Below, piece by piece: positions 2,186 through 64,000 of a stretch of 64,000 nucleotides of DNA. Under the pieces are notes generated by a model that was not told the DNA's origin, did not search any database, and saw only the letters and a program-made list of their open reading frames with translations. The translations under genes and the position numbers were made by a program. The stretch lies in the NCBI GenBank assembly GCA_033439295.1, contig JAVTLE010000011.1:2480082-2544081 (forward strand). The letters run 5' to 3'. This stretch comes from Deuterostichococcus epilithicus. Its lineage: Eukaryota > Chlorophyta > Trebouxiophyceae > Prasiolales > Stichococcaceae. Positions within the stretch are counted from its first letter, which is position 1. The number at the start of each line of letters is the position of its first letter.

Positions 2186-5100
2186 TCACTCGTCCCGCCG
2201 CTTGAAGGTGCCCGAGGGCCAGAACCACTCCCCAGTGGGCTTTGGGATCTTGAGCGGGATGGGGTTCTGCATGCCCGGCGACGCCGGCGACTGCTCCTGG
2301 CCCGGCGGTGCCTCTTCCTGCCTCGCAATAAGCGGCGCCGCTTCGGTCGCCGCGCCGGCGGACCTGCTGCCGTTTGCAGATGCGCTGCCGACGGGCTGGG
2401 TCGCCTCGGGGGACCGGGGCGGCTGCAGTGCTGCAGGCGCCGGCGCGACAGACTGCGGGCCGGCGGCCTGTGCCTGTGGCTCCTGACTTATGGCCGCATC
2501 ATTCGGGCGCTGGAGTGCCGGCTGCCACGCAGGGCTGGCGGCTGCAGCAGGTGCTGTGTCCCGACGGAAGTCCGGGTCCGAAGAGTCCATGGACCGCGCC
2601 TGCGTCGGCGGCAGCCGGGCAGGGCCGCTGGCAGCACCGGCGGGCGGAAACTGCTGCTGCTGCTGCTGCGGCCGGGGCGGCTGCGGCGCAGTCGGAGGGC
2701 GCTGCCGGGGCTGGGAGGGGGCCGCCGCGGCGCTTGCCGCAAGGGCCGGGTTGACCCAAGCGCGAGCAGCGCCGGCGCCGGCGCCAGCGGTGGATTGCCT
2801 GGCAGCTGCAACCGGTGGCGGCGCCACCGGGTCGCCCGGCTGCCGTTGGAAGCGACCGCGCTGCGTCCTGGGCAGCAGCGGCCCGGCCCGCCGCGGCGCC
2901 GGGCGGGGGCCGGCCACCGCGTGGGCGGCGCTCGCCTGCCGCTGCCGTGGGTCGACGGTCGGCACTGGGGCTGCCATCCCCGACCGCGGCTGCTGTTGCG
3001 TCAGCTGCAGACCGGCGGACACGCCGGCCTGCTGCGGCGGGTGAGTGTCGGCGACCAGACTCTGTGGCGCGTGTGGCTGCGGCTGCCGAGGCTGCTGCTG
3101 CTGCTGCTGCTGCGTCTGAGACCAGAGCTGCTGCTGGTCCGCTGCGGCTGCTGGCTGTGATGATGCCCAGGCAGGCTGCGTCAGGGTGTTCCAGTCATCT
3201 GCCGCCGCCGCCGCCGGCTGCAGTGCATCCGGCGCCGCCGGCGGCGGCGAAGGCGGAGGAGCAGCGGCAGACGCGCGCGGCNGCGGCTCAGGGATCTGTG
3301 CCCAGGAATGCCACGCTGTCAGTGCCGCTGCCCCTCCCATGACCAGGCGGCCGGCTGCTGCCGGCGCCGCCGCTGACGCAGCAGCTTGGCTGGACGGCGT
3401 CGTCGCCTGCCGGCGCTGCATTGCTGTCTACTGCCCAATACTCAGACCTCAATCCCACCTGGGATGTGGGTCAGCGTCGCTGGCAAGGTCACTGTCCCAG
3501 GCTCCCCAGACGCCCGCTGCCACCAAGTCACAAGGCCTGCTGTGGACAAAACCAAATGGCGCCTCCCACTGCTAAGAACCCCCAGCACAACCCGCCTCCT
3601 CGGCTGCCAATCTCGGCAGCTGATGCGGCCCATGTGCCAGGCCCGGGGGAGGGCAAGAACTTCGAATCGATTCAAAATCGTACCTTGCCAGCCAGGATGT
3701 TGTCCTCGAAGGATGGCGTGAAGCCCGTCGCGATGATGGTGACGTGCACCTCGCCGTCGTATGCGTCGTCAATGACGGCGCCAAAGATGACGTTGGCGCC
3801 GGGGTCTGCCAGCCCGGTGACCACTTCCGACACCCTGCAGTGGACAGCACAGAAGCCAGGGTTTAAAATTTAGGGTTTCGGCCCTGAAGATGACGTTGGC
3901 GCCCGGGTCCGCCAGCCTGGTGACCACCTCCGACACCCTGCAGTGGAAATGCACACGCGTGCTGCATGTTCGTCATGGGCCAGGGGCGTAACAACGACGG
4001 GACACCAGCGCTCGAGTTCACTGGCCCAGCGACGAACTCTGACAACACCCTGCGGTGAACACGTTGCGAGACTTGGTGCGTTATGTGTAAGCCGCACAAA
4101 CTCTACAAATGCGCATGAGGCTTGCGACCAGGACCGCAAAGCCCGCGACCGCCTCAGACACCCTGTGAGAGTGATGTGGGCGCTGCATCTGAAGAGGTCA
4201 GGTATCCAGGGACGAGAACAATTGCTGTGGCCTGGGTCTGACTCACTTCCGAATCACGGGCCCCATGCCTTGCGACGCTTTGTTGTGGTCCCTTGGGGGC
4301 AGCTGCTGTGGCAGGATGGCCACAGAAAGCACAAGGTACAGCAAGCGTCCGGGAAGGTCTGGAGGGTTGCCGCCGCTGGCCCCTGCCCTGTGCGCTTCAG
4401 CGCCGGGCGCACGTGCCACCCATGATGAAACTTGCAGCTTTCCCGCAGACTCTGACACTAACAGGCAGGCTCGAGCTGCCATACAAGGACTGGTGCAGAT
4501 GAGCGCGCACCGGTTGACCTCCTGCAGTGTGAGGTCGCTGCCGCCGGTGATGTTGTACACGATGCCCGTCGCGCGCTCGATGGAGCGCTCTATCAGCGGC
4601 GCGCTGGTCGCCGCCTGCGCGGCGCGTCAGGGGAAGCCGCCTCAGGTGTCGAGCAGTGGTGTGAGCAGTCCGACGCGGCCAGGTGCGAGGGAGGAGCAGC
4701 AGGGGTGGCAGCGGTGCGCGGCCAGCAGCCAGCAGCCAGCTGGGCTGAATGCACTAAGACAATGCTCGCATAGGCCCAGCACAGTGGCAATTCATGCTGT
4801 GTATATAGTTTTCTTTGTTGTTGCTAGCAAACCTTGTTCACTGTCAAATCGCACCAGGGCGGCCTCCTCTGCGCGGTTGCGGCCGGAGGAGACGCCGACG
4901 CCGAGCATCGCGGTGCCGCTGTTGCACATGATGGCCTTCACGTCTGCAAAGTCCACGTTGACCAGGCCCGGGATGGTGATGATGTCGCTGATGCCCTGCA
5001 CGCCCTGCAGGCCAGAGGGAGGGGACCCATGTTGCGACGAGGCCGACTCCCAGGGTATCAGGGCTTGCGATGAGCACACTGCAAAGGTTGCCTGACACTT

Positions 5101-7237
5101 ACATGCCAAGCTCAATCGCAAGGTTGCTCTCGACGCTATACAAGCATCCTGCGAAGTGACAAGTTGCCCTGCTGTGATGCGAGGGGATGCGGTTCCATGA
5201 AGCCACTGAGGAGACATGCCCTGAACTCTGCCCCTGAGCCCCGCACCTGGCGCAGCACGTCATCGGCCAGCAGGAATGCGTCCTGCAGCGGCGTGTTGTT
5301 GCCCACCACGTCGAGCAGCCTGCGCGCGACAGGTCGAGGCATTTCCGTTTCGCTGTGCGAGGGGAAAGATGTCGTTCATGGGCGTTGATCATCGCACCCT
5401 GTGTCAGGCTGCCCGTAGTCGGAGCATCGCCGTCTGGCCCCGTTCGTTCGTGCCTGCTGGGACCTGCCGCTGCTGCGCAGGCAGCTCTTCCCAGCGCCTC
5501 GAAGGAAGTCAGAACCGAGCTCCAGCGCGGCGGCGCGGCACCACTCGTCGTGCAGAGGCAGGGACTTCGGCACACCTGTCGTTGGGGATGACGATGAGCG
5601 TGTCCACGTTCTTGCGCAGCGTCTCGACGCCGTCGGATGCCTGGTTGCCGCGGCGCCGCCCCTCGAAGGTGAACGGGTAGGTGACCACGCCAACGGTCAG
5701 AACGCCGGCCTCGCGCGACAGCCGCGCCACGACCGGCGCCGCGCCGGTGCCGGTGCCGCCGCCCATGCCAGCCGTGATGAACGCCTGCGCCGCAGCGGCA
5801 GGGTTGTGAGGTTCTCTCTGAGGGAAGCGGTGCTCGTGTTTGCCGCAGCGCCGCGCCTGCACGCCGCGGCCACCGACGCCTGCCTACATCTGTGTGTGCG
5901 CCCATCCTTGCGCACAGGTCATCTGTGCACGAGGACCTTATGCTCAACGCTCGAACGAGCACCATGCATGCACATTCGCATGCCTGGGGTGCATGCATAG
6001 TGCTCGTTCGAGCACTGAGCATGACCGGTGACAATGCGGGACCTCGGGACCGCTCGCATCCGGGTTGCAACCCTGCAGATTTTTCAGTCGCCGCGCACAT
6101 CCTGCAGAGAGCGGGTCCGTCATGTCGGCGAGGCCAAGATCGCCTCCCCTACAACAGCTGCTGCGTGGTTCTCTGGGTATGTGGGCACACAGACTGCCAG
6201 GCAGCCAGATGTGCCCTTTTGGGTTTTGCTTACTCACCATATCGGCCCCAGCAACGACCTCGCCCAGGTCTGCGTATGACTCCTGAGCCGCCTGCTCCCC
6301 CAGCTCTGGGTTGCCGCCCGTGCCTGTCCGGGAACGACATGCCGAGGACAGCTGTCAGCAAACATGGACCTGCAATGTCTTGCTGCAGCGGTGCTGAGCA
6401 CCAACGCAGTGATTCAGCCTGTCGCACTTCGGATGCCATTTGCAGATCGCGTTTTGCTATTTCGGAGGAAGCAATCTTGCAGGCTCACCCAGGCCCCGGG
6501 TGAGCTCGCCGCCTAGCTGCAGCTTGTTGGGTGCCAGCGCATTCTCCAGCGCCTGCGCGTCCGTGTTGACCGCCCAGAACTCCACGCCCTGCATATATGG
6601 CGAAGGTCCAATCTCAGACTCGAGTCCTGGATGTGCATAGTTGTGGCGCCGCATGGAATTGTCAGTATAGCTTATATGCTGCTGTGTCAGACATCGCACG
6701 TGGTAGGTAAGTGTGGTGCCCGAGCGGCCTTTGATGTGCGTTTGGCTGATGCAACAGCGGTTCATTAGCAGAGCTGTCATGAGACCGGTGACACCTGCAA
6801 GCCGCTGCTGATCATCCGGTTGACGGCATTGCCGCCGCCGCCGCCAACGCCCACAACCTTGATGCGCGCATCACCGCCTGCAAGAGAGATCATGCAAGAC
6901 TGAGACTTCAGCAGTGCAAAATCTCGGCCCGAACTTCACCACTCACCACTCACAAGCCGAAGGGCACAGGTGCCCTGCTAGCTCCGTGCACACATGCATG
7001 TTGTGTGGGACGTCATGCATTGCATTCAATTTTATCACTTGATCACAAGCAGATGCTGTCTTAGACCGACGGCGGAAGTGAGGCATCACCGAGAGCGAGG
7101 CTGGCCGAGACTGCGATCGCGCGTCTGCTGCAGGGCCTGCTGCTGCATGCGGATCTCCTGAGAGGAGTGCCGCAGGCAGGCCGGGCGTGGCAGGGTGCGT
7201 GCAGCCCGCCGATGCGCAGAACGCCCGCGGCTGCCAT
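2186..7237 (-). CDS. FTSZ1: Plastid division protein FtsZ1, with a very long disordered C-terminal tail
   Basis: Ten exons in consistent phase: 7237-7090, 6877-6795, 6588-6489, 6323-6238, 5784-5576, 5319-5247, 5004-4855, 4614-4511, 3834-3684, 3415-2186; about 777 residues. Exon 1 starts [11 protein letters not shown] and is an Arg/Ser/Ala-rich plastid transit peptide. The GTPase core is complete: [27 protein letters not shown], tubulin signature [57 protein letters not shown]. The motifs [16 protein letters not shown] and [11 protein letters not shown] match plant FtsZ1 rather than FtsZ2. FtsZ1 polymerises with FtsZ2 into the stromal Z-ring. The last exon encodes about 409 residues rich in Gln, Pro and Ala, where plant FtsZ1 tails are short. 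It ends [13 protein letters not shown] and lacks the FtsZ2-type ARC6-binding peptide. One base in it is ambiguous (n at 3282). Confidence 0.92.
3780..4185 (-). repeat. Array of four acceptor-spanning exon-edge copies in FTSZ1 intron 8
   Basis: The real exon 9 starts at 3834 after CAG with GGTGTCGGAAGTGGTCACC. Further copies of this junction begin at 3937, 4049 and 4162, spaced 103, 112 and 113 bp. The 3937 copy is about 90% identical over some 60 bp, including the intron end TCCACTGCAG, and would encode [17 protein letters not shown]. The 4049 and 4162 copies are clearly diverged (roughly two-thirds identical by eye) but keep CAG followed by GGTGT. Only the 3834 copy leads into the rest of the exon (HVTIIATGF) in frame. 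The others look like decaying tandem duplicates left inside the intron. Confidence 0.85.
5941..6021. repeat. Large near-perfect inverted repeat (hairpin) in FTSZ1 intron 4
   Basis: Arms at 5941-5973 and 5989-6021 are 33 bp each and complementary except for three positions, with a 15-nt loop. The arms contain TCGAACGAGCAC and ATGCATGCAC. The hairpin lies between the exons ending at 6238 and starting at 5784. It could be a small MITE-like element, a transcript hairpin or a simple palindromic duplication. No flanking target-site duplication was recognised. Confidence 0.85.
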
Positions 7238-8273
7238 CAATGCAGATCACAGGTGTCCACTGGCGTGACTACCAGCGCATGCCGCAACGGCGCAGCAGGC
7301 CGTCAGCAGGGCTCGCAACTTGGTGATCGCAGTATCTGATGTGTGATGTCAAGCAATGAACAATGTCGTCAACTTGAGCTCTTCAAAATCAATCGCGCAG
7401 GGGGCTGAACAAAACCTGCCCCCGTGGAAGCTGCTCTGCGTGCTGTGATGGCTCCTGCAAAGTGCTGATTCTGCAAACCTGCAGCAAGCTTGCAAGTCGG
7501 TAGCGGAGTTGCGAGTCTGGAGGACTTCCATCAGTGTAGCCGCACAGCTGTCAGCAAACGGCAGGCAATTTTGACCGTGCAGTTTTCCCTCCCGAGACGT
7601 GTCGAGCAGCGAGGCCTATCACATGCGCGCACTGCCGCTGGTGTCGCTGTTAGGCCCGCTACTCGGTCGCAATACCGGCGAAATTATGACAATGGTGCAG
7701 CAGGTGCCAAACAGAACACTTGACCACTGACTGCTGGTGTGCAGGATGCCTGCGCAACCGAATGACGTCCTGCCTAGGAGCCAATGCTGGGTCATGGCGA
7801 TTTCCTCATCCAAACATGCCGTGCTGCGCAGAGCACCATGATCCGCTTGAGCCACCTGCCAAATCTGCGCAATTTCACCGTACCCGCCGCGCACATCCAC
7901 GCGCCCTGGGGACCAGCGACCCACAGCAGCACCAGCGACGGCCCGACTTGGGCCTGGCGGCCGCGCATGCGCAACAACGCCAGCGCCGTGTTGTCTCGAA
8001 GCGGCAGCGGCAGTGCAGGACCCAGCCTGCCACAGCCGCCCAGGCGACATCGCACCTTGCACAGCTCGAGCGCTGCAGAGAATGCGGCCACCGACACAGT
8101 GGCAGAACCAACGGAACCGCAGAAGCCCAGGTGATTCGCCTGAAGACGAGCTGGTGTTGGACAGCTGGCTGCCTACCCTGTGGCACACTACTGGCAAGCC
8201 GCAGAGACTGCCGCAGAGATTGGCCGTCTCTCCTCTAGAGCGCCAACGGTGGACCTCGAACGGCGCCCGTGTA
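7238..8273. other. Divergent intergenic region between FTSZ1 and the 5'-3' exonuclease gene
   Basis: It must contain the promoters and 5' leaders of both genes, which diverge from here. No conserved protein motif was found on either strand. An unrecognised upstream exon of the exonuclease gene is possible, because that gene's start is not certain. Confidence 0.5.
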
Positions 8274-50477: not shown

Positions 50478-50926
50478 CGCCAGCGGAGCGTCGGGCCCTA
50501 TCCCTGCTGGCGGGGGGCAGCAGCCCATGGCTCAGCAGCAGCAGCTCCAGCGGCAGCCGGGCCAGCAGCAGCAGCAGCCAGGCCAGCAGCAGCAGCAGGT
50601 GGTGCAGCAGCAGCCGGGGCAGCAGGTGCAGTTTGCGCCCCAGGCGCAGGGCATGCCGGGCATTCCGATGCCAGGCGCCGGCACAATGGGAACCATCCAG
50701 CCCATGTCCCAGGTGTGCAGCTGAGACGGCGGGACCTGTCTGCACCTTCAGGCTGGCATGCCCTTTGAGCGCACTGCTATGTGATGCACAAGGCCGTGGT
50801 GGCCACTGCCGTGAACGGCGTACACCAACGCTGTGCTTGCACGGTCCAGGATATGAGCCCAGCTGCAGCCTGTAACGCAATTTGCCTGCTTCCTGCATCC
50901 CATGCAGGCGCAACAGATGGCGCTGG

Positions 50927-51020
<94 letters not shown>

Positions 51021-51630
51021 GCCGCCGGCACTCCAGCAGCAGCAGCAGCAGCAGCTGCCGTCCGGAGCAGCGGGGCCGCCCACCGGCGCCGCCGCAGCGC
51101 AGACAGCTCAGCACCTGGCGGCCAATCAGGCGGCGCTCATCGCGCAGCAGCGCGCGCGGGCGGCGGCAGCGTCGGGGTCCATGCCGGCAGGGATGCCCGC
51201 AGGCGCACGGCCCGGCACGCAGGCGATGCCTCGGACAGGCACGGCAGCGATGCCAGCGGGCGACGGCCAGGGCCCGCGACCCAGTATGCCCGTGCCTCGG
51301 CAGCAGCTAGCGGGCGGGCAGCCGCAGCAGCTGGTGGGGGGCCAGCCGCGGCCCGCGGCCGGGGCGCTGCCAGGCCAGCCACAGATGGCCCAGCAGCAGA
51401 TGCGGCCTGCGGCCGCAGGGGGAGCTCTGCCGCAGCCCGGCATGCCGCAGCCCGGCATGCATCCGCTGCCGATGGCGGGCAGCCCTGCGCCCATGCGCCC
51501 AATAGCGCCAGGGCAGCAGCAACTGGCTCCGCAGCAGCAGCAGCAGCTGGCGCGGCCACAGCAGCAGCTGCAGCAGCCGCAGGAGGCGCGGCAGCAGTCG
51601 GTGCAGCCGCCGCCGCCGCCCGCGATGTGA
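44298..51630 (+). CDS. EAF1: EAF1-like NuA4 histone acetyltransferase scaffold (HSA and SANT domains), N-terminus uncertain
   Basis: At least 15 exons. The first secure one begins near 44298 (MSIEAAKRAKASGESVLPHL); upstream exons are likely. The HSA domain is split between 45105-45224 (YLLQEATWLAIDFSQ) and 45461-45541 (ERLWKRYAAKSIAFAAAAAR). A linker (near 47110-47245) reads RPTYVPMEEDIEWDTEDAPP. The Myb/SANT exon 47929-48099 reads GWSGHEDEMLAAVVHEFGDN and SHKACRERFKEL, the layout of plant EAF1 and yeast Vid21. Later exons are Pro/Ala/Gln-rich, and the last two hold CAG tracts of 13 and 30 units; the stop is at 51628-51630. EAF1 holds the NuA4 complex together in the nucleus: HSA binds actin-related proteins, and the SANT domain is thought to contact chromatin. 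Exon joins between about 45830 and 47250, and 48300-48600, are approximate. Confidence 0.82.
48131..48153. repeat. Short perfect inverted repeat in EAF1 intron
   Basis: GGATTCAGGGT and ACCCTGAATCC are exact reverse complements separated by one base, just after the SANT exon. The motif resembles the degenerate telomere-like CCCTGAA heptamer seen elsewhere in the window. Confidence 0.85.
49398..49440 (+). repeat. G-rich tract with G-quadruplex potential in EAF1 intron
   Basis: Runs of four to ten G separated by single T, C or CC residues, including TGGGG repeats. At least four G4 runs lie within 43 bp on the coding strand, so the nascent RNA could also fold. Confidence 0.8.
50437..50475 (+). 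repeat. CAG trinucleotide tract, 13 units, coding polyglutamine
   Basis: Pure CAG run in frame within the penultimate EAF1 exon, after IAAAP and before PASGASGP. Confidence 0.95.
50929..51018 (+). repeat. CAG trinucleotide tract, 30 uninterrupted units, coding polyglutamine
   Basis: Ninety bases of pure CAG in the last EAF1 exon, between MALG and RPPAL. A further shorter CAG cluster follows within 20 bases. With no synonymous CAA interruptions, the tract is expected to be length-unstable. Confidence 0.97.
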
Positions 51631-53006
51631 GACAGTCTGGGTTTTCAGCGGTTGACATGTCTTGCCACGCAGCCTGCAAGGGGCAGCGGCCACGCAGTCT
51701 GGCGTGTACTTGCCTTGGGCGTCTCGCACCAACTGGGCCTCCAGGAGGCAGCGGGACGCCGCAAGCTGTGCACTGCAACTTGCGTGCTTGCACTGCTGAT
51801 CGCTATGCAACGAAGAAAATTCAGCAGGCTCTACCTAGGACACCGTTCTTCGCGGCATTCGCAAGCGTTGTTGGCGTTCGGATCTTGCGCATGGAACTGC
51901 CCCGTGTGTGTCGAATTGTGTCGCCACCATCGTGTCGTCCCGGCGTGAGTGCAGATCCCGATTACACACTCGGCCCCGTGTTTGTCGGACAGTGTCGGCA
52001 GACGTCAGCCCTCTCTCATTATCTATCGTCCCATCCGGTTGTTCAAGTGCTCAGTTGCAAGCCCTATTGCGCATCCTTCCGCCAGCGCAGCCGTCTCTGC
52101 AGCACAGGCGCTCTGCACCTGGCACAAGTGCACAGCCTGTAGCGATTACACTGACAGCCCCCACAACCCCGCCCAGCGCCACCACGCCCGCCGCGGCACT
52201 GCAATTCGATTATGGAAGCGCCGGCGCCGGCCTTGAACGGGTGGGTCTTGCCGTCGATGGCCCGAACACTTCGTAACGAAAGGGCCTGTGAGCAACTGCA
52301 AGATATTTGCGGGCAGCAGCTATGTGCCCCTGCCTCGAGCTGTCAGTATGGCCTTCTCGGGGGATCCGTCTAGCGCGCACCCGTTCCGGCACACTTTGCC
52401 GGCCTGCGCCAGAAACAACCTTTTGCACAGCTGGCAAGGCACACAATTGAGGCGGTGCAACCCGAGCCGCTCGCAGCCCCAGAAGTTACAGTCAGGCGCC
52501 TGGGTGCGCCACTGTTGCAAGTAGATTGCAACTGCCGCTGCGGTCGAACACCTCTCCAAGAGACTAGCATACGACAGTCGGCGTCGCTGTGGTCAAGTAC
52601 AAGCGAACGTCAGGTGTTGCGACGACACCTTCACCCCTGTAGGCCTTCGTCCAGAAACGCGTGGCGTGTGGCCGCGGTGTGCTATTCCGCCTGATGCAGG
52701 CAAACACCAATGCTCACTGTTCATTTGCTGGCCAGTAGCAGGCAAGCAGCGTGACTCAGCCAAAGTTCATACCCACTCACAAAGCGCTCTTAGCCAGCCT
52801 CTCCAGCCTATCCAGCCAAGAGCACGGTCCGACAGCCTAGCGACAGCGCTGATGCGAAGGAGCCAGCGGCTGGTGGCAACTACAGATTGCCAACTCGGGT
52901 GCATGTCAGGTGCCTCTAGCCTCGCTGGCAGGCGCCTGTCGTCGTGCAGTACACAGTGCGGCAGGCTAACGCCTGTCCGCTCACAACAAGCAGGGCCAAC
53001 AGCAAG
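51631..53006. other. EAF1 3' flank and 5' flank of Hint gene A (start of segmental duplication)
   Basis: From about 51944 the sequence is duplicated at 57122 onwards. A Pro/Gln-rich frame at about 52030-52170 (SSAQLQALL, PPAQPSLQHRRSAPGTSAQP) is nearly identical in both copies, but has no family motif or clear splice link to the downstream gene. Promoter of gene A is presumed here. Confidence 0.5.
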
Positions 53007-56000
53007 ATGAACAACAGCCTGAAGGTCGACGTGCCGGCCGGCGGTGGTAAAGACCTCTCACGCCTGCCCACACGGCGGCGGCGCGTGCAGGAGCGCCTCG
53101 CGCAACTGGACATGGACGGCGATGGGATGGTGTCTAAGGAAGAACTGGTGGGAACTCATGCCTTTCTACATCCTGTGCGCAGGCATTGAATTGGTCTGCA
53201 CTATATGTCGATGGCGCGAGTGCTCACTGCTTCTGACTGGTTCTCACCTGCCGTGCGCCATCACCTAACAGAACCTGCTCTCTTCACAATGCAGATCGGC
53301 TTTATCGAGGACACAATTGCAACGGAGACCCAGGTGAGACTGGCGTTGCGCACAGCGTGCGCCGACATGCATGTGCAGAATGGCACTTGTTACAATGCGA
53401 TGCACTGTTGCCACCGCCTCCTGTTGAGCAGGGTAGCGCGACGCACACATGCAGGTGAAATATCTCAAGTGGGCCGGCGTCTTCGTGCTGGTAAGTCCTG
53501 TTTGTGTTGTCTTTCGTTGAACAAACAACATCATTGAACCGCTGTCGGTGCTGTCAGCCCTGGTGGGCTGCACTCCACAAGTTTGCGCCTCATTGACCTC
53601 CACAATGATCATGCAGGTGTTCACCATCATCCTGTTGGGCTGCATTGCGGGACTCATCGTCGGCATCACCAAGGCCCTGCGTGAGACGAAGTCGGAGGTG
53701 CGATTTTGATGCTTTGATCTGTGCTGCAGTCAATGGCGACCGTCCAGCATCAATGACAGGGCTCGATTCGTCGGAGGCAACTGCACAGTGGTGTGACACG
53801 CGCAGCCAGCGACTCGACGGTTGCAGCACGGCGCTGACACTGCATCGTCCCCTGCACACAGTCGGGCGCGCTTGCCGACAACTCTTCCGGCGCGACGCTC
53901 CGCACCGCGTCCGCCAGCTACATGCAGCCCATGGTGACGGCGGCGAGCTCAACGGCTGGCCGCCGCCGGCTGCTGCAGACCGGCGCGGATCTGGTCGGCA
54001 CCATCCCCACCTCCACCGTCGCGACCTACTGCAAGTACCTCCACGAAGGTGAGCTGAGGGTGATTTTGGCTTCTCTGATATACCACGGCGTTGACTGGAT
54101 GGCTGTCTCCGGCATCCAACCAATATGCTGCCTCCTGGCTGGCGTCACCCAGCTCTGATGACCGAACGTGGTCGCCACGCAGGCTACATCACCGTGCCAA
54201 CATCTGCCACCTTCATGAACGGCAGTGCTGAGATCGTCGACGGCGTCTCCCCCGTCCAGGTGCGGCAGCCAGGATATGCATAGCGTACTCACGACTCAAG
54301 TAGCCCTGGGCTGAGCAAAGCTCTGTCAGGATGCAGTCCTCACAGCTATGAATTTGATTCTTGCATTGCATCACCGTCTGACAGCTGGGCAGTACTGCAC
54401 TGTGGGATAGCGAAGCATTTGATCATACTGCCCTTGCACTTCCAGATCACAGGGGAGACAAGGTGCGTGGCCTGGGTGGCCGGCCTCAGCCCTGCCGACA
54501 TCCAGCACGGGCCCGCGGTACCGACGGGTGGCGTCAGCGGAACTTTCATCTATGACAGCGACCAATACTCGGTGGAATGCGAGGCCGCGGCAACAAACTG
54601 CACCCTCTTCGTCACGAGCACCTCGTCCAACAGCACTGCTACGTCCACCTCGGGCCGCCGCCTGCGTGAGCTAAAATATAATGTTGCACAGAGCAACAGC
54701 GGGCTTTGCCTCACAACTGTGCTTGCGGCTTGGCGCGGCGCAATATCCTTGCACGATAGTTTGAGTCATTGGGAGGTGGCGGTCGACGGATGTTCTGTCT
54801 TGCGTCCGCAGTTCAAGACTACTACCAGAAATGCTGCAATGACCCTGATCGTTCCCATGCTAACATCCCAAGATGCTGCGGCGGCGGCGGCGACTGTGAT
54901 GCAAATTGTAGAGACAGAAACCCAACACCCCAACCATCTGGCGGCTGCTTCCCGGCTTCTGCGGAGGCCGTGACATCATTGGATGGTGGCGTGACAACCG
55001 TCGTGCGTCGCATGGGCCAGCTTCGCATCGGCGACAAGGTGTGTTGCAGTCCCAGATGCATGTCGGACATTGATAGTGCATCCACTGCATTGACATGTGA
55101 GACTGCCCAACGCTGAAGCGTAGGCTCAGCGCATCAGCCATGTGTAGGTGCGCCCTGCCACAACTGTTGCGCGCAGCGTTTGCTCACGGTGCATCATACT
55201 GCATCACACTACAGGTGCTGACTCGCGATACCGCTGGCAACATGGCCTTCGAGGATGTCTACGTGTTTGGCCACCAGGACGCATCTGCCACTGCTCCCTT
55301 CGTCCGCATCCACACTGAGGTGCGCCCCGCTGGCATGACCATCCATGTGCCATATCTCAAAACTGTGCTAGGTCTCCCAAGCCTGGCACAGAAGACCTGG
55401 AATGTCCCTCACCAGCTGTACTCAACCTCTGCCTGCCTCACAGACACACTGCTTCTGCCCACAGGGGAGCTCCAAGGCCCTGGAACTGACTGGCGGCCAT
55501 TTCGTGCCAACTCTCGACGCCGCTGGCAAGCGTCGTATGCTGCGGGCCCGTGAAGTGCGCGCGGGCCAGACCGTCTTGGTTGCCGGCGCCAGCGGCTTCC
55601 ACCCCCGCACAGTCACGAAGGCACGTTCAAGTGGCCAAGTTAAAGAGGGTGCTAATGCAACCTGCTTGCACCGGTGTTTGCTTGAACGGTGCGTGGCTGA
55701 AGTGCAATTGCCATGCGCATCAATAAGCACAGCTGCAGCAGGCTGGATTTTGACGCTCCAGGGCGCCTGTGAAACATACAGGTCACTAGCGCCACGCTGC
55801 GCGGCCTGTACAACCCGTTCACCTTGGGCGGCAACATCGTCGTTAACGGCGTCCTGGCGTCGGCGCACAGCGAGTGGTTCCTGGACGGCGTGGTGCCGGG
55901 CGCCTGGGCGCACCGCCTGCCGGCCACCTACCAGGTGCGCCCAACTATGTGATCTTGCCATCTTGGCTATGCTTCAAAGACGACTTCACGGATGAGTGTC

Positions 56001-56316
56001 GCATGTGCACACCTCGTGTGCACACTCTGGACGCCTTGCACCCTTAACACTCGTCGTGGTAATCCTCTCCTGCTGTACCGGTACCTTGCCACATTCATGC
56101 GGTGCTTTACATTACTGTCTGACCTCGCAGGCTGTGCTGACGCCGGCGCGCATGATGTACCACGCCTTTGGTGTCGAGGCAGCGCGCCGCATCGATGCCG
56201 CTGTGGACTTTGCCAGCATTGCCGGCGGCGCCAAAGGTGGCTTTGGCAACTTTGCCATTGCCGTGGGCCTGGCCCTGCGCACTGGGGTTGCCGGCATGAT
56301 CACCGGCAGCAAGTGA
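53007..56316 (+). CDS. EF-hand / transmembrane / Hint (Hedgehog-like autoprocessing) domain protein, copy A
   Basis: Twelve exons in exact phase: 53007-53147, 53295-53333, 53455-53490, 53617-53697, 53862-54048, 54183-54259, 54446-54665, 54812-55038, 55215-55319, 55465-55620, 55782-55934, 56131-56316; 535 residues. The N-terminus has an EF-hand loop DMDGDGMVSKEE. One membrane span, about residues 70-95 (VFTIILLGCIAGLIVGITKA), follows with no signal peptide, suggesting type II topology. The outer region is Ser/Thr/Asn-rich. A Cys-rich linker leads to GGCFPASAEAVTSLDGGVTT and GQLRIGDKV, the start of a Hint domain with its nucleophilic Cys. ELTGGHFVP holds the TxxH motif, and GLYNPFTLGGNIVVNGVLAS matches the Hog C-terminal fold. 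The end is Gly/Ala-rich and could be membrane-associated. Hint domains cleave the peptide before Cys. Intron 10 uses a GC donor. Biological role unknown. Confidence 0.88.
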
Positions 56317-56631
56317 GCCAGAAAAGACATGACCTGACATGATAACGCTGCATGCGCCCAATGTCACGCAAGAGCAAGTAAGGTCGGAATTGCTGCGACT
56401 GATTTTTCTTGCAAATCGTCGTGAGCTCGATAGTACCTCGTGGGCCTCGCCAAAGGACAGTTCGGTGTTGTTTTGTCACAGTAAATGGAGAGAACATTTG
56501 CTAGGTCGCTGCTTGTTACCTGTTCTGGTACTCTACCTTCTTGTTCGCTGTGTTGCTTTCTGCAGTTGCCAAGAGAAACACTCGGCACTGCTGACCAAAA
56601 ACGACCCCCAACCCCATTGCGGTGCGGCACT

Positions 56632-56700
56632 GCAACATCACTGAAGCTCCACCTCGAGGCATCTTTCAGCGCATCCCGTCCTTGGCCTTATAGACACAGA
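56632..56700 (-). pseudogene. Relic of the 3' end of the PheRS gene
   Basis: Read on the minus strand, 56700-56632 aligns with the intron end, last exon and stop region of the intact PheRS gene (about 61760-61690): GGGATGCGCTGAAAGATG and GGTGGAGCTTC are shared. The splice acceptor is lost (TTGCAG has become TATAAG) and small indels break the frame. The following bases, near CGACCCCCAACCCC, match the downstream 3' UTR as well. Confidence 0.85.
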
Positions 56701-56725
56701 AGGAGGCTTGACAACGAGACAACAG

Positions 56726-56760
56726 TGCTTCATGCTTCATGCTTCATGCTTCATGCTTCC
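56726..56760 (+). repeat. Heptamer tandem repeat (TGCTTCA)n
   Basis: Four perfect TGCTTCA units and a fifth partial unit. Copy 2 of the duplication has only one related unit near 61785, so this array grew after the duplication or was lost there. Confidence 0.92.
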
Positions 56761-57121
56761 CGACTGCAGTGCATGCTTGCGGCTCTGAGAAGCCGCGCAG
56801 TCAAAACAATAAATCAATACTACTTTTGCCGAGCGCGCAGCTCATCCAAGGTCGCGGCAGCACCGTGGGTAGTTACGCATCGCAGTGGTGTGACACATGA
56901 AGCTTGCCGTGCGTCTGGAAACGCGCTGGTGCCGCACCCGAGTACCGGTAGCACAAGTAGCGCTATGCACATAACGCGCCTGATCCCATCACTCTACAGG
57001 TCCGCTGCCTTCCCCGCCCGAGGCGCCCTCAGACCAGGGCCAGGCCCTTGAGTGCGCTGAGGTGGGGCAACGTCTGGGTATTGTCCTAGGGTTTAGGGCA
57101 TTTGGAGGGCCATTTGTACGT

Positions 57122-60100
57122 CGTGAGTGCAGATCTCGATTATACGCATTGGCTCCTCCGGTGGTTGTCGGACAGTGTCGGAAGACGTCCAGCCTCCCTC
57201 AACATCGATCGCCCCATCCGTCTGTTCAAGTGCTCAGTTGCAAGCCCTATTGCGCACACTTCCGCCAGCGCAGCCGTCTCTGCAGCACAGGCGCTCTGCA
57301 CCTGGCACAAGTGCACAGCCTGTCGCGATTACATTGACAGCCCCGCCCAGAGCCCCCAACCCCGTCGCGGCATTGTAAGCGACTATGGACGCGTCGGCGC
57401 CGGCCTTGAACGGGTGAGCTGGGCTGTCGATGGTCCGAACATCTCGTTATGAAAGGGCCTGTGAGCAATCGCAAGATATCTGCGGGCAGCAGCGATGTGC
57501 CGGCGTGCATCTGATGCTGCCTCGAGCTGTTAGCACGGTCTTCTAGGGGACTTCGTCCCCTCCAGCGCCCACCCGATCTAGCACACTTTGCCGGCTGCTG
57601 CGCCAAACCAACTTTGTGCACAGCTGGCGAGCACCAACTTGAGGTGGTGAAACCGAGCCGCTCGCAGCCCCATAGATCACAGCCAGGCACCCTGGCTGCG
57701 ACACTACTACAAGCAGAGTGCGTTTGCTGCTGCGGTCGAACACCTCTCTCAGATATTGACTGATATGACTAATTTCATACGGCGGGATCGCCTTGTCGAG
57801 TAAGAGCAGGGGCCCGGTGTGTCCAATTTTCCGACGACACCTTCACCTCCAGCTCTGCAAGCCTTTTTAGAAACCACGGGGATTGTGGCCGCGGTCTGCT
57901 GTCCCGCCCGATGCAGCTGGCGTCATCGACAGGCTGGCGAGTCTGGCCAGCGCCTGGCAGGCTGGCAGCAGGTGCATGCCAGATGCCTGTAGCCACGCTG
58001 GCAGGCGCCCGCAATTTTGCTGTACGCATTGCGGCAGGCTAACGATTGTCCGCTCACAACAAGCAGGGCCAACAACAAGATGAACAACAGCCTGAAGGTC
58101 GACGTGCCGGCCGGCAGTGGTAAAGACCTCTCACGCCTGCCCACACGGCGGCGGCGCGTGCAGGAGCGCCTCGCGCAACTGGACATGGACGGCGATGGGA
58201 TGGTGTCCAAGGAAGAACTGGTGGGAACACACGCCTTTCCACATTTTCCGCCTCCGGCATTGCATTTTTCTGCACTAGTACGTGGCAATGATAATGGTGA
58301 AGTCGCTGCTTCTAGCAGCGATTTTCCCCCCTGCCATGCGGTGCGCCATCAGCCTCTGGTGTCGGCTGACAGATCCTGCTCTCTTCACGACGCAGATCGG
58401 CTTCATCGAGGACACTATTGCAACCGAGACCCAGGTAATGAAGCCTGGCAGGCATTGCGCTCAACTGTGCGATGGCGTGATGGATATGCAGAACCGCACC
58501 TGCTGCAGTGCAAGTATAGTCTTGTTGTCTCCGCCTCCTCATGACTCACAATATACATTTACAGGTCAAATATCTCAAGTGGGCTGGCGTCTTCGTGCTG
58601 GTAAGAATTCTCTGTATGGTCTGTCACTTGTTGAACTGTTGCTGGTGGTGTCAGCGCTAGTGGGCTGATGCACTCAATAAGTATGCGCCTCTCTTGACCA
58701 TCACAAGATGACCATCTGATAATGCAGGTGTTCACCATCATCCTGTTGGCCTGCATTGCGGGACTCATTGTCGGCATCACCAAGGCTTTGCGCGAGACGA
58801 AGTCTTCGGTGCGATTTTGATGCTCTGACCTATGCTGCAGCCCATGATGACCGTCCAGCAACACGGCTTGAGTCATCAGAGCAGCTGCATGGCGTTGTGA
58901 CGCGCGCAACCAGCGACTCGACGATGGCAGCACGGCGCTGACACTGCGTCATCCCCTGCACACAGGACGGCGCGCTTGTTTCCAACTCGTCCGGCGCGAC
59001 GCTCCGCACCGCGTCCGCCAGCTACATGCAGCCCATGGTGACGGCGGCGAGCACGATGGCTTCTGGCCGCCGGCTGCAGCAGACCGGCGCGGATCTGGTC
59101 GGCACCATCCCCACCTCCACCGTCGCGACCTACTGCAAGTACCTCCACGAAGGTGAGCTGAGGACCCCTGGCTTTGCGTGGGATCTCGCTTGCTACTCCC
59201 AATGCTCGCCATGTCATTCAATGGATGGCTGTCTGCGGCATCTAACCAATGCATTGCCTGCTGGCTTAGTTGTGTCATTCAGCTCAACCGAATGTGGCTG
59301 CCATGCAGGCTACATCACCGTGCCAACATCTGCCACCTTCATGAACGGCAGTGCTGAGATCGTCGACGGCGTCTCCTCCGTCCAGGTGCGGCAGCCATGA
59401 TATGCGAAGCGTGCTTACTGCTCAAGGAGGCCTGGGCTGAAAGCAGCTCTGTCAGGATGCAGCCCTTGGAACGTTGCAGTCGACCCTTGCGTCCATCACC
59501 GCTTGACAGCTGGGGGGTACTGATCACGCTGTGGGATAGCGAAGCATGTGACCATCCTGCCCTTGCACTCCAGATCACGGGGGAGACAAAGTGCGTGGAC
59601 TGGGTGGCTGGCCTCAGCCCTTCCGACATCCAGCAGGGGCCCGCGGTACCGGCAGGTGGCGTCAAGGGCACTTTCATCTACGACAGTAGCCAATACTCGG
59701 TGGAATGCCTGACCGGGAAAAAAAATTGCACCGTCCTCTTCACGGGCACCTCATCCAACAGCACCGCTACGTCAACCTCGGGCCGCCGCCTGCGTGAGTG
59801 TCCATATCATGTTCGTGCAGATTCGTAGCCGGCCTGGCCTCTCTGCTGTGCTTACGGCTTGGCGCACTATCTTTGCAGAATCACATTCCGGACGGCGGCT
59901 GACACAGATTCGTTTTGCGTCCGCAGACCAATATACCCCTGGTCCATGCGACTATTATAATCAGCGAGGACTGAAGTGTCCCCAGCCAAGCTGCTTCCCA
60001 GCTTCTGCGGAGACTTTGACGTCCTCGGATGGTGGTGTGACAACCGCTGTGAGTCGCATGGACCAGCTGCGTATCGGCGACAAGGTGCGCTGCAGTGCCA

Positions 60101-61800
60101 GGAGATGCATGTTAGACATCGATGGTACATTGCCATTGCAAACTCCAGACGCTGCAGGGCAGGCTCCGCGCATGAGCCTTGTGTAGGCATGCTTTGCCGG
60201 AGCTGTTGCAGCCAGCGTTCTGCTCACGGTGCATCATACTGCATCACACTGCAGGTGTTGACCCGCGACGCTGCTGGCAACATGGCCTTCGAGGATATCT
60301 ACGTGTTTGGCCACCAGGATGCATCTGCCACTGCTCCCTTCGTTCGCATCCACACTGAGGTGCGCCCGCGGGCACGATCATCCATGTGCCACACTGGGCC
60401 TCAGCAGCCTGGTGGGTACAGAGGACATGGATTGTACCTCACCAGCTACGATGCTCAACCTCGACCCGTCTAACAGACACATTGCTCCTGCCCACAGGGG
60501 AGCTCCAAGGCCCTGGAACTGAGTGGCGGCCACTTTGTGCCGACGCTCGACGCCGCTGGCAAGCGCCGCATGCTGCGGGCCCAGGCTGTGCGCGCGGGCC
60601 AGATCGTCCTGGTTGCCGTCGCCAGCGAATTCCAGCCCCGCACAGTCACGAAGGCGCGTATTTGAGTCTCAGATGCTGCATTGCTCTGATGTCGCATGGG
60701 TGCAGTGGTGAGCGGCTGCCGTGCCCGTCAAGCACAGCTTCAGCAGGCCGGATGTTGACGGTTGAGGGCGCCTGTCAAACTCGCAGGTCACCAGCGCCAC
60801 GATGCGCGGCCTGTACAACCCGTTCACCTTGGGCGGCGACATCGTCGTCAATGGCGTCCTGGCGTCAGCGCACAGCGAGTGGTTCCTGGACGGCGTGGTG
60901 CCGGACGCCTGGGCGCACCGCCTGCCGGCTACCTACCAGGTGTGCCCAACTGCGTACTCAATCTCGGCTACTGGTCCCAGTGACACCTTCACGGATCAGT
61001 GGCGCGTGTGCACGCCCAGCGTGCACACTCTGGGCGCCGTCCAGGTGACCCGTAGTAACGACGTCTGCTGAGGAGTGCCTGCCTGTGCCTCACTACGCCA
61101 TTGCATCCCAAGTGGTGCTTTACATTAGTGTCTGACCTCGCAGGCTGTGCTGACTCCGGCGCGCATGATGTACCACGCCTTCGGCGCCGAGGCGGCGCGC
61201 TGCATTGATGCCGCTGTGGACTTTGCCAGCATTGCCGGCGGCGCCAAAGGTGGCTTTGGCAACTTTGCCATTGCCGTGGGCCTGGCCCTGCGCACTGGGG
61301 TTGCCGGCATGATCACCGGCAGCAAGTGAGCCAGAAAAGGCATGACAAGACCTGACATGACAAGGCTCTGCATGTCATCGAAGACGTCAAGGCAAGAGGA
61401 AGTAGGGGTCTGGAATTGCGACAGATCGGCTTGCAAATTATTGCGAGTTCGACAGCTCATTGGCCTCGTCACAGGAAAGATCGTTGTTTCTTTGTCACTG
61501 TGTTGGAGCGGACTTATCGCTACGTTGCAGCACGTTTCTTTTCTGTTGTTAGGTATATGATTGCTGTGTTGCTTCTCTAGCTGCGGTTGCAGTGACTCGA
61601 TCCTAGGCTGAAATAGGTAAGCAACAGCTGGCATGCTGGTCCAGCCGACCCCCAGCCCCATTTGCGGCTTGTGGCAAAATGTGCTGCCACATCATCGAAG
61701 CTCCACCTTCAGATCATCCTTCAGCGCATCCCGCACTTGGCCCTGCAAACACGGATGGAGGGTTCAGAACGAGACTCTATGTGACTTCATGCTCGTCAAC
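57122..61800 (+). repeat. Segmental duplication, copy 2 (Hint gene B and the intact PheRS 3' end)
   Basis: Begins GTGAGTGCAGATCTCGATTA, matching 51945, and runs through gene B into the last PheRS exon. The intact PheRS end here makes this the likely ancestral location on the right side. Confidence 0.88.
58080..61329 (+). CDS. EF-hand / transmembrane / Hint domain protein, copy B
   Basis: Same 12-exon structure as copy A, about 512 residues. First exon 58080-58220 (same EF-hand loop DMDGDGMVSKEE); last exon ends at 61329. The membrane span reads VFTIILLACIAGLIVGITKA. The linker exon 59927-60084 is 69 nt shorter than in A: it has YTPGPCDYYNQRGLKCPQPS in place of A's Cys/Gly-rich stretch. The Hint start PSCFPASAETLTS keeps the catalytic Cys. 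The TxxH motif has become SGGH (ELSGGHFVP). GLYNPFTLGGDIVVNGVLAS and the Gly/Ala-rich end are conserved. Intron 10 again needs a GC donor (AAG then GCGCGT). Frame and key Cys and His are intact, so it is likely functional; the Thr to Ser change may slow processing. Expression and role are unknown. Confidence 0.87.
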
Positions 61801-64000
61801 GCAGCGGCTGGAGGGCAGTGCACGCTTAAAGCTTTCAGGCGCCGCATGAACCACGATAATCACCTGGAGACTGTTGATCTCCTCGTCCGTCAAAGACCTG
61901 CAGGCAGGGAACGCGTCACGGTGTGTCTGTCTGCGCAAGTGGTGCACTGTGAATACGCCGGCTTTGCCCGCCCTGCTCTGCCGCTGAAGGGAGGTGCTTC
62001 CTGTGACGCCGCTTGTGCAGCGGCTGCAACGCTGTGCACCACACGTCAGGCGGGCGCACCGCTCGTTGGAGCGGTAGGCGATGCGGAAGCAGTTGGAGGT
62101 GCGGCCGGTCTTGGGGTTTGTGAAGTCGTCGATGAGCTTCACCTCCTCCACCAGGTCGCCTGCACTCAGGAAGGGAAGCATGTCTGGGCATCTCCATGTG
62201 CTGTTCCAGCATATGGTTCTGCACCACGGTGTGTGCAGCACCTGCCAGGCACCCTGTCTGGGATTGTGCTGAGCGCCTGATGCAGCCACACATGCCAACG
62301 AGCTGAGCGTCACCTGCGATGCCGCGCACCGCCTCGCACAGGTTGTTCTCTGTGAAGTCGTCGTTGGTCCAGAAGCTGACGTCCTGCAGCAGAGGCAAAT
62401 CAGCTGACGCGTTATTTGCTGCTGGATGTTGTGTCGTAATTCGCGCTGCCGGCTGCATGTACGGTCTGTCCATGTTGCGCATCACGTGTCGCAAAGCTCA
62501 ACAGCATCAGGCGCTCATGCGCCTCAACCAGTTGCAACTCTGCGCACCTTGAAGCAGGGCGGAAACTTGGAGAAGGGCTTGAAACGCGCATTCAGGTTAC
62601 CGGCCTTAAACTGCTTCAGAAAGCGCTGGTCCTCCGACCAAAACAGCCTGCGGGTGTTTGACAAGAGCATGATCGGGCTGAGGGACACAGCAAACAGACT
62701 GGGACCTGAAGTATGGAGGAAGCTGCGTTGAAGTCTGTACCTGCCCAGAGATCAGCGGGGCGGAACCAGATATGCGCAGGGGCTGCATTGCTCTGACAGC
62801 CCCACGTGGACTGGGTGTTTAGTACACAGGCGCTGAGAGGCGCGGCAGGCACTTGAGTGAGTGCCTGCAGACAAGGTGCCAGCTGACCAGCTGACGCACG
62901 CACCGGATGTCGGGGATGTCGAACAGCACCATCGCAAGGCGCTCCAGCCCCAGGCCGAAGGCCCAGCCTTTGTTGCCCGGTTGCCCATTGTCCTCAAGAA
63001 TGGACTGCTGCATGACGCCGCAGCCCAGCACCTCCAGCCACTCGCCGCAGAAGAAGATCTCCAGCTCGAAGGAGGGGTCGGTGAACGGGAAGTAGGCGTC
63101 CACTGCACGGGGCAGAGGGGAGGGATGCATGTTTGGGACCTGAGCATCTGTGCTGGCCATGAATAAGGGCAGAGCAACAGATGCACTGCCGACACATGCT
63201 TTGCATGGTCTCGAGAATTGCCACGCACCTGTCCCTCTCCCAACCCGCGGTCGGCAGTTTGAAGAACGCTGTCTCGAGCAAAGGGGGGGAGGGGTGGGGG
63301 GGGGGGGTGAGGCAGGCAGGTGATGCTCTGCACGCGGACACAAGCCCGCCAGCGGTCGGTTGACGAGGCGGCAGCAGCAGCAGTGGCTGCAGGTGGCACG
63401 CACCCCAGCGGGTCTCAATCTCCTGGCCGAACAGGTGGCGCGCGAGTCCCTCCAGGGTCTCCTTGAGTTCCGCCTCCACGAACTCCACGGCACCCTTGCC
63501 TGCATGGGAGTTCGCACAGATGATCATGAATGCGGAGTGGAACGGTGCACCTTGGACCCAGGAACGACAGGGCTACAAGGCGCCCTTACGCTTCTCTGCC
63601 ACTGCCTCCGGCGCAGGTATGGGCAATGAATTTGGGCATAGTAAGCAGGCTAGCATGGCTCTGCCATCTCCCTCTCTCTCAAAATGCCAGCAATGGGAGG
63701 CGGGGCAGCCGACGCAGCCTCTCTGAAATTGAGGAGAGACTCAATGTCGGTCGAGGCTGCTCGAAGGTCCGCAGCGTCATGTGTTCAAAATTCTGTCCAC
63801 GCACAATCCAACATCTGCGGTCTCCCCCGACAGGAAGAGGAGAAGGCTTCCTCAGATGATGGGACACCTCCATGGCATAACAGGTGGAAGCCGCTCAGAA
63901 TATCCAAGGGCAGGAGCCGGCCTGGCAATTCAGCTCTCATCACCTGCAGCCTCCCAGGAGGTGGGTTCGTGGATGCGGACAGCCTCCATCTGATGAAACA
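61692..64000 (-). CDS. Phenylalanyl-tRNA synthetase, organellar monomeric type, 3' part (5' end beyond window)
   Basis: Exons on the minus strand: to 63944 ([20 protein letters not shown]), 63499-63404 ([20 protein letters not shown]), 63102-62904 ([32 protein letters not shown], motif 3 [17 protein letters not shown]), then [15 protein letters not shown]...[63 protein letters not shown] and the last exon ending DDLKVELR at 61692. The C-terminus is the FDX-ACB anticodon-binding domain of the one-chain mitochondrial/plastid enzyme. It charges tRNA-Phe in the organelles. The N-terminal part and targeting peptide lie outside the window. A G-rich run at 63283-63308 is intronic. Confidence 0.93.

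Follow-up and report, generated by a model that had tools for sequence, protein, structure and literature searches.

In this work, two tandem genes were characterized in a 64,000-nucleotide stretch of the Deuterostichococcus epilithicus genome (hereafter the window), which covers positions 2,480,082-2,544,081 of contig JAVTLE010000011.1 (labelled C10) in an assembly of 46.8 Mb and 21 contigs. Each gene encodes an EF-hand loop, a single hydrophobic span and a C-terminal Hint domain of the Hog type. We consider it rather probable that both proteins are Hog-domain precursors in which the N-terminal half is new and which would be cleaved at the first cysteine of the Hint domain (Cys1). The GC content is 62%. 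Both genes were assembled by hand from 12 exons, and every exon join is in frame. Ten of the 11 introns per copy are of the GT-AG type and one (intron 10 in both copies) is GC-AG, with lengths of 121-204 bases, and the spliced products have 535 (copy 1) and 512 residues (copy 2). The copy 2 exons were recovered by a home-made spliced aligner from the copy 1 protein alone, except the start of exon 8, for which two acceptors are possible (the alternative start is 59879). The initial annotation of this DNA had placed a tandem EF-hand/single-span/Hint pair at 53007..61329, and these ends coincide with the ATG of copy 1 (53007) and the final base of the copy 2 stop codon (61329). The Hint domain, EF-hand loop and hydrophobic span lie within a single spliced model in each copy. 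The duplication extends 5' of the genes, where 51941-52556 and 57119-57748 are 81% identical over 646 columns.

53007..56316, plus strand: copy 1 gene, 535 residues, based on in-frame splicing and the Pfam Hint match; 12 exons at 53007-53147, 53295-53333, 53455-53490, 53617-53697, 53862-54048, 54183-54259, 54446-54665, 54812-55038, 55215-55319, 55465-55620, 55782-55934 and 56131-56316
58080..61329, plus strand: copy 2 gene, 512 residues, based on in-frame splicing and spliced alignment with the copy 1 protein; 12 exons at 58080-58220, 58396-58434, 58565-58600, 58728-58808, 58966-59152, 59309-59385, 59574-59793, 59927-60084, 60255-60359, 60498-60653, 60787-60939 and 61144-61329

The Hedgehog-like Hint domain of the initial annotation was borne out by profile, since both copies match PF01079 past its cut-off (E values of 6.4e-29 for copy 1 and 3.8e-27 for copy 2). 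Hedgehog was closest to the Hint part of the window copies by profile and by PDB sequence, and the C-terminal domain of Hedgehog ranked first in a fold search made with the predicted model of a homologue, P0001, rather than of a window protein. A Hint/Hog fold nearest to Hedgehog is thus supported, in part by a predicted model. An intein or a bacterial-intein-like domain is a very improbable alternative, because Hedgehog is clearly closest in all three comparisons. Inteins have a C-terminal splice junction and a C-extein, whereas here the domain ends with VVNGVLAS as in Hog proteins, predicted helices come next and there is no C-extein.

54946..56316, plus strand: copy 1 Hog region, with Cys1 at 54946-54948, FGHQD (His at the Asp303 position) at 55266-55280, LTGGH at 55486-55500, IVVNGVLASAH at 55836-55868 and a sterol-recognition-region (SRR)-like WAHR...PAR at 55905-56151
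59992..61329, plus strand: copy 2 Hog region, with Cys1 at 59992-59994, FGHQD (His at the Asp303 position) at 60306-60320, LSGGH at 60519-60533, IVVNGVLASAH at 60841-60873 and WAHR...PAR at 60910-61164

Cys1 and the TxxH motif are in place (TGGH in copy 1, SGGH in copy 2) and VVNGVLAS occurs in both copies, as the initial annotation had stated; the motif-J Cys of Hedgehog (Cys400) corresponds to Ala in VVNGVLAS. The active site was compared in an alignment of 28 rows, which included the two window copies, six paralogues of the same genome, 18 homologues of uncertain lineage breadth, and fly and human Hedgehog; nematode Hog proteins were left out. Cys1 was kept in every copy retaining its exon, and the TxxH His in 25 of 26 rows, with Arg in the paralogue on C11. 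Cys400 was kept in one of 25 rows (P0014), the C11 paralogue being gapped there. At the Asp303 position, Asp was observed in fly and human Hedgehog and His in all 26 remaining rows; this His (H332) was also invariant in a separate 18-row alignment. Asp303 is described as the general base for sterol in Hedgehog (PMC9163320), and passages of two reviews report that the engineered D303H (D46H) fly Hedgehog keeps its structure and activity and accepts a wider range of sterols (PMC9163320, PMC8529194). A natural His at this position comes from the present alignment and was not found stated in the literature passages. Since the D303H fly protein is active with broader sterol use, natural His Hogs may be broad-range sterol ligases, and the presence of His in every row except the two animal ones opens the sterol-ligase question to testing.

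The candidate sterol region of the window copies includes WAHRLPATYQAVLTPAR, in which the human Hedgehog helix residues occur in the same order with a longer gap. These residues are given as W372, H374, P379 and R381 in the passage on the human protein (PMC7906309), and mutation of H374 and R381 is reported to have drastically lowered its product in cells (PMC7242414, in part). In HMMER, this part of the human protein is matched to P0001 by a weak second stretch. The Hint part ends at VVNGVLASAH and is followed by an 83-residue tail; helices are predicted after the Hint, and P0001 residues 441-480 have a predicted local distance difference test score (pLDDT) of 75-86. At the level of residues, the C-terminal region resembles the Hedgehog sterol-recognition helix. 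The genome contains three matches past the cut-off for the Patched family (PF02460), at two places (C19:1990182-1990726 and C14:309911-310030), which are perhaps general sterol or RND transporters, and no conclusion is based on them.

The N-terminal half contains the EF-hand loop and the membrane span.

53109..53144, plus strand: copy 1 EF-hand loop DMDGDGMVSKEE, from Pfam and the loop pattern
58182..58217, plus strand: copy 2 EF-hand loop DMDGDGMVSKEE, from Pfam and the loop pattern
53461..53667, plus strand: copy 1 membrane span, residues 63-89, on exons 3-4 with an intron between, from hydropathy
58571..58778, plus strand: copy 2 membrane span, residues 63-89, on exons 3-4 with an intron between, from hydropathy

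Calcium ligands of an EF-hand loop occupy positions 1, 3, 5, 9 and 12. The 12-residue loop here is canonical in this respect, and a six-frame translation of the whole window (127,996 residues, introns retained) has no further site with the strict pattern. The previously proposed EF-hand stands as a canonical loop with a PF13202 E value of about 2e-4, but its scores (21.1 and 21.2 bits in the two copies) lie under the Pfam cut-off of 25.9; PF13202 is also in the domain listing of homologue P0001. The link to calcium is speculative, as it depends on one EF-hand loop that would probably need pairing to bind the ion, and calcium control of the protein is very doubtful. Hydropathy gave a single hydrophobic span per copy, at residues 61-94 (copy 1) and 61-95 (copy 2). 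No Cys occurs N-terminal of the span, 11 (copy 1) and eight (copy 2) occur C-terminal of it, and the N-glycosylation sequons are 4/5 C-terminal of it. An orientation with the N terminus inside and the C terminus outside is favoured because Cys residues and sequons cluster after the span. The model of P0001 has a pLDDT < 50 over residues 92-276 of its N-terminal half.

We hypothesize that the N terminus with the EF-hand would stay in the cytosol, and that the span would act as a signal anchor through which the remainder enters the secretory pathway. The Hint domain would form a thioester at Cys1, which would be broken by water or by a sterol, with the His in place of Asp303 serving as the base. 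The Hog half would be shed, and the outer region, whose last residue lies just before Cys1, would remain anchored by the span and might gain a lipid as second anchor. Cleavage itself is predicted and appears likely, and lipid attachment is possible, though doubtful. In this orientation, a cut directly before Cys1 would free the Hog half, and release of the outer region would need a second cut. It would mean that the release of the outer domain proposed in the initial annotation does not follow from cleavage at Cys1. Several observations weigh against cleaved precursors of this kind. Copy 2 has SGGH where copy 1 has TGGH, the second Cys of Hedgehog (Cys400) is replaced by Ala, and the spacing from WAHR to PAR exceeds that of Hedgehog. 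Immediately before Cys1, where Hedgehog has Gly, copy 1 also has Gly, but copy 2 has Ser and the four C18 paralogues (C18a-d) have Gln, Glu or Asp. The charges flanking the span leave the topology unsettled, as the positive charge of the C-flank equals or exceeds that of the N-flank.

Alternatively, the Hint domain could be non-cleaving or decaying, a structural remnant in a membrane protein. The C11 paralogue no longer has the exons for about residues 171-335, Cys1 included, and carries Arg in place of the TxxH His, for which reasons it looks degenerate; the gene model of C18d contains an in-frame stop, and the Thr of TxxH is Ser in copy 2. However, the same Ser occurs in 10 of the 18 homologues, Cys1 is kept wherever its exon is kept, and the Hint part is conserved between the window copies. 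Between copies 1 and 2, the ratio of nonsynonymous (dN) to synonymous (dS) substitution was 0.08 for the EF part (Fisher p = 0.013), 0.20 for the span (p = 0.004), 0.75 for the outer region (p = 0.38), 0.21 for the Hint part (p = 9e-7) and 0.17 for the tail (p = 0.011). As judged from these ratios, the Hint part is shown to be under purifying selection, and we consider a non-cleaving or decaying domain unlikely.

Hog domains have already been described in red algae, mosses, dinoflagellates, haptophytes and other groups (Bürglin, 2008; PMC2362128, in part). The plant-lineage host named in the initial annotation is not the surprise, because algal and moss Hog domains in organisms without Hedgehog were published there. 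That paper reports the N-terminal halves of Hog proteins to be fast-evolving, and secreted whenever the protein start is certain, and it proposes an ancestral secreted Hog protein. The present proteins are like these Hogs in their C-terminal Hint followed by a candidate sterol- or adduct-recognition region (SRR/ARR), in a lineage-specific N-terminal half and in the motif-J Cys, which is often replaced; they differ in beginning with an EF-hand and membrane anchor instead of a signal peptide. In the main text of PMC2362128, EF-hand is absent, the sole use of "transmembrane" refers to another, Hog-less protein, and green algae are not named. Hint domains across eukaryotes were mined in PMC5784728, which may list algal Hints. 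An EF-hand and membrane anchor replacing the signal peptide of a Hog protein was not found described in the open-licence papers searched, nor was a Hint domain together with Chlorella found in them. The C-terminal domain of animal Hedgehog (1AT0, 6TYY) is alike in fold, Cys1, TxxH, Hog-like end and the P-x-R of the sterol-region helix, and unlike in that the window proteins have His for Asp303, no Cys400 and no Hedge N-domain; the Hedge N-terminal signalling domain gave no Pfam match in the window copies at E values up to 1. The Hog part belongs with known non-animal Hogs, and the combination with an EF-hand and membrane anchor appears new.

The pair belongs to a multi-gene family, which, like the His at the Asp303 position and the hypervariable linker ending at Cys1, was beyond the initial annotation. 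The N-terminal exon was found at at least seven loci of the genome (two on C10, one on C11 and four on C18), and Hint exons were present at all seven found. A further Hint gene, C18e (L041, about 4395-7532, minus strand; C18 near 740 kb), has a different N-terminal half; its upstream open frame holds MACRRRHLLLCALCILTCQAAA, which has the look of a signal peptide, and the exon model is tentative. Homologues P0001 and P0002 carry the whole layout and align to copy 1 over 96% and 98% of its length, with identities of 46% and 45%. Their source contigs, of 1937 and 1911 bases, leave no room for introns on the scale seen in the window. We take their source code, lgn, to denote assemblies of public reads. 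The whole layout in both homologues supports one gene rather than separate EF-hand/span and Hint genes, in agreement with the initial annotation. Neither outcome that would have contradicted that annotation, a missing Hint fold or two separate genes, was seen. In the protein collection (8000 candidates scored), the N-terminal half of P0001 (residues 1-265) matched P0001 and P0002 alone, and a profile built from the N-terminal half gave no persuasive match among the remaining 16 homologues (lowest E value 0.013, for P0018). The closest named Hog domains found were those of Coccomyxa P0018 and Scenedesmus P0017, with 46% and 45% identity to P0001 and a common SxHSDWFLD end. They differ in that the EF-hand/span half was not detected; the start of P0018 reads as a signal peptide, and P0017, with 268 residues, may be incomplete. 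In a Hint tree of 27 rows, with C11 left out, the Hint domains of C18a-d joined C18e (support of 100/99), and the window copies grouped with P0001, P0002, P0017, P0018 and P0003/P0004 (eight members, 96/90; inner steps from 83/86 to 91/77). The EF-hand/span half is thus common to two Hog lineages that are not mutually closest, so that either loss or swapping of domains is implied. A green alga with a small family of membrane-anchored Hog proteins offers a direct place to test Hog function without Hedgehog. Hog domains fused to other N-terminal domains were seen in homologues P0004, P0013, P0014 and P0015, for example with trypsin-type Pfam domains (P0015) or FAD-binding/berberine domains (P0014).

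The most interesting lead is the linker, where a hypervariable segment is bounded by the second RR(R)L site and the catalytic Cys1.

53958..53972, plus strand: copy 1 first dibasic site GRRRL, with RRL in 8/8 aligned family members
59062..59076, plus strand: copy 2 first dibasic site SGRRL, from the family alignment
54650..54664, plus strand: copy 1 second dibasic site SGRRL, with RRL in 7/8 aligned family members, the one without it being P0001
59778..59792, plus strand: copy 2 second dibasic site SGRRL, from the family alignment
54665..54945, plus strand: copy 1 hypervariable segment, 45 residues with six Cys, split by intron 7
59793..59991, plus strand: copy 2 hypervariable segment, 22 residues with two Cys, split by intron 7

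The Cys-rich linker of the initial annotation was recognized in copy 1, but its Cys-richness is not conserved in copy 2. The least similar 40-column window fell within the segment in 7/7 within-group paralogue pairs. Between copies 1 and 2, 22 codons of the segment were alignable and nine residues identical; BLAST similarity ended inside intron 7 (54736) and restarted at 54944/59990, two bases 5' of the Cys1 codon. Among the six C18 pairs, both rates were raised in the segment (dS of 0.50-0.77, dN of 0.27-0.41) as compared with the other parts (dS of 0.03-0.45, dN of 0.02-0.07). Identity at the Cys1 codon stepped from 10/30 to 25/30 in copies 1/2 and from 17/33 to 30/30 in C18a/b, two of the three pairs, and weakly from 22/30 to 25/30 in C18c/d. 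Segment identity in C18a/b was 68% as against 89% in other introns, and it was near the intron level in C18c/d (79% and 82%) and in copies 1/2 (71% and 74%, with 69 gap columns).

A segment of this kind would be expected if the Hog cut and a second cut at the RR(R)L site released a short, diversified, Cys-containing peptide, with the conserved remainder as its carrier. The retention of RRL at the second site in most members and the Cys pattern kept within the C18 group would agree with this, and in some nematodes Hog-released peptides of 15-34 residues were predicted (PMC2362128, in part). However, dN/dS of the segment in the C18 pairs is below 1 (0.43-0.75, with p < 0.05 for C18a/b only), and the intron just 5' of it diverges more than other introns in 5/5 pairs, so positive selection is unsupported. 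Furthermore, the segment of C18c/d has a dS (0.50) little over the 0.45 of the outer region, the second site is missing from P0001, and the furin/kexin P-domain had no match in the genome, where a split domain could be missed; subtilase domains number 12 among the matches listed. The RRLLQ codon motif was rejected as special, being found at 341 places genome-wide as against 328 for the scrambled order (read-backwards controls, 201 and 129). Release of a peptide by two cuts is accordingly a rather remote prospect. Still less probable is the fuller proposal of peptide-diversifying precursors, in which an EF-hand/span carrier would hold a variable Cys segment of about 20-50 residues, freed by the two cuts with the His as base and perhaps bearing a sterol or other alcohol at its C terminus. 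If true, a unicellular alga would have turned Hedgehog chemistry to making a signal for recognition, mating or defence. Because the synonymous sites of the segment, and the intron before it, are old as well, simple positive selection would account for the pattern less well than escape from gene conversion or exchange of a cassette. The diversity of the segment may be kept by selection, or the segment may be a free spacer. If the precursors are cleaved at Cys1 as predicted, the position of the hypervariable segment, directly before the cut, points to the product rather than the Hog domain as the part that diversifies.

Directly 3' of copy 2, the minus strand (61777-63523) contains apparent phenylalanyl-tRNA synthetase exons (PF01409, E value of 1.2e-19; FDX-ACB, 2.4e-4, below the cut-off). 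On the plus strand 5' of copy 1 (50857-51630), an open frame with a long glutamine run gave no Pfam match at E values up to 0.01.

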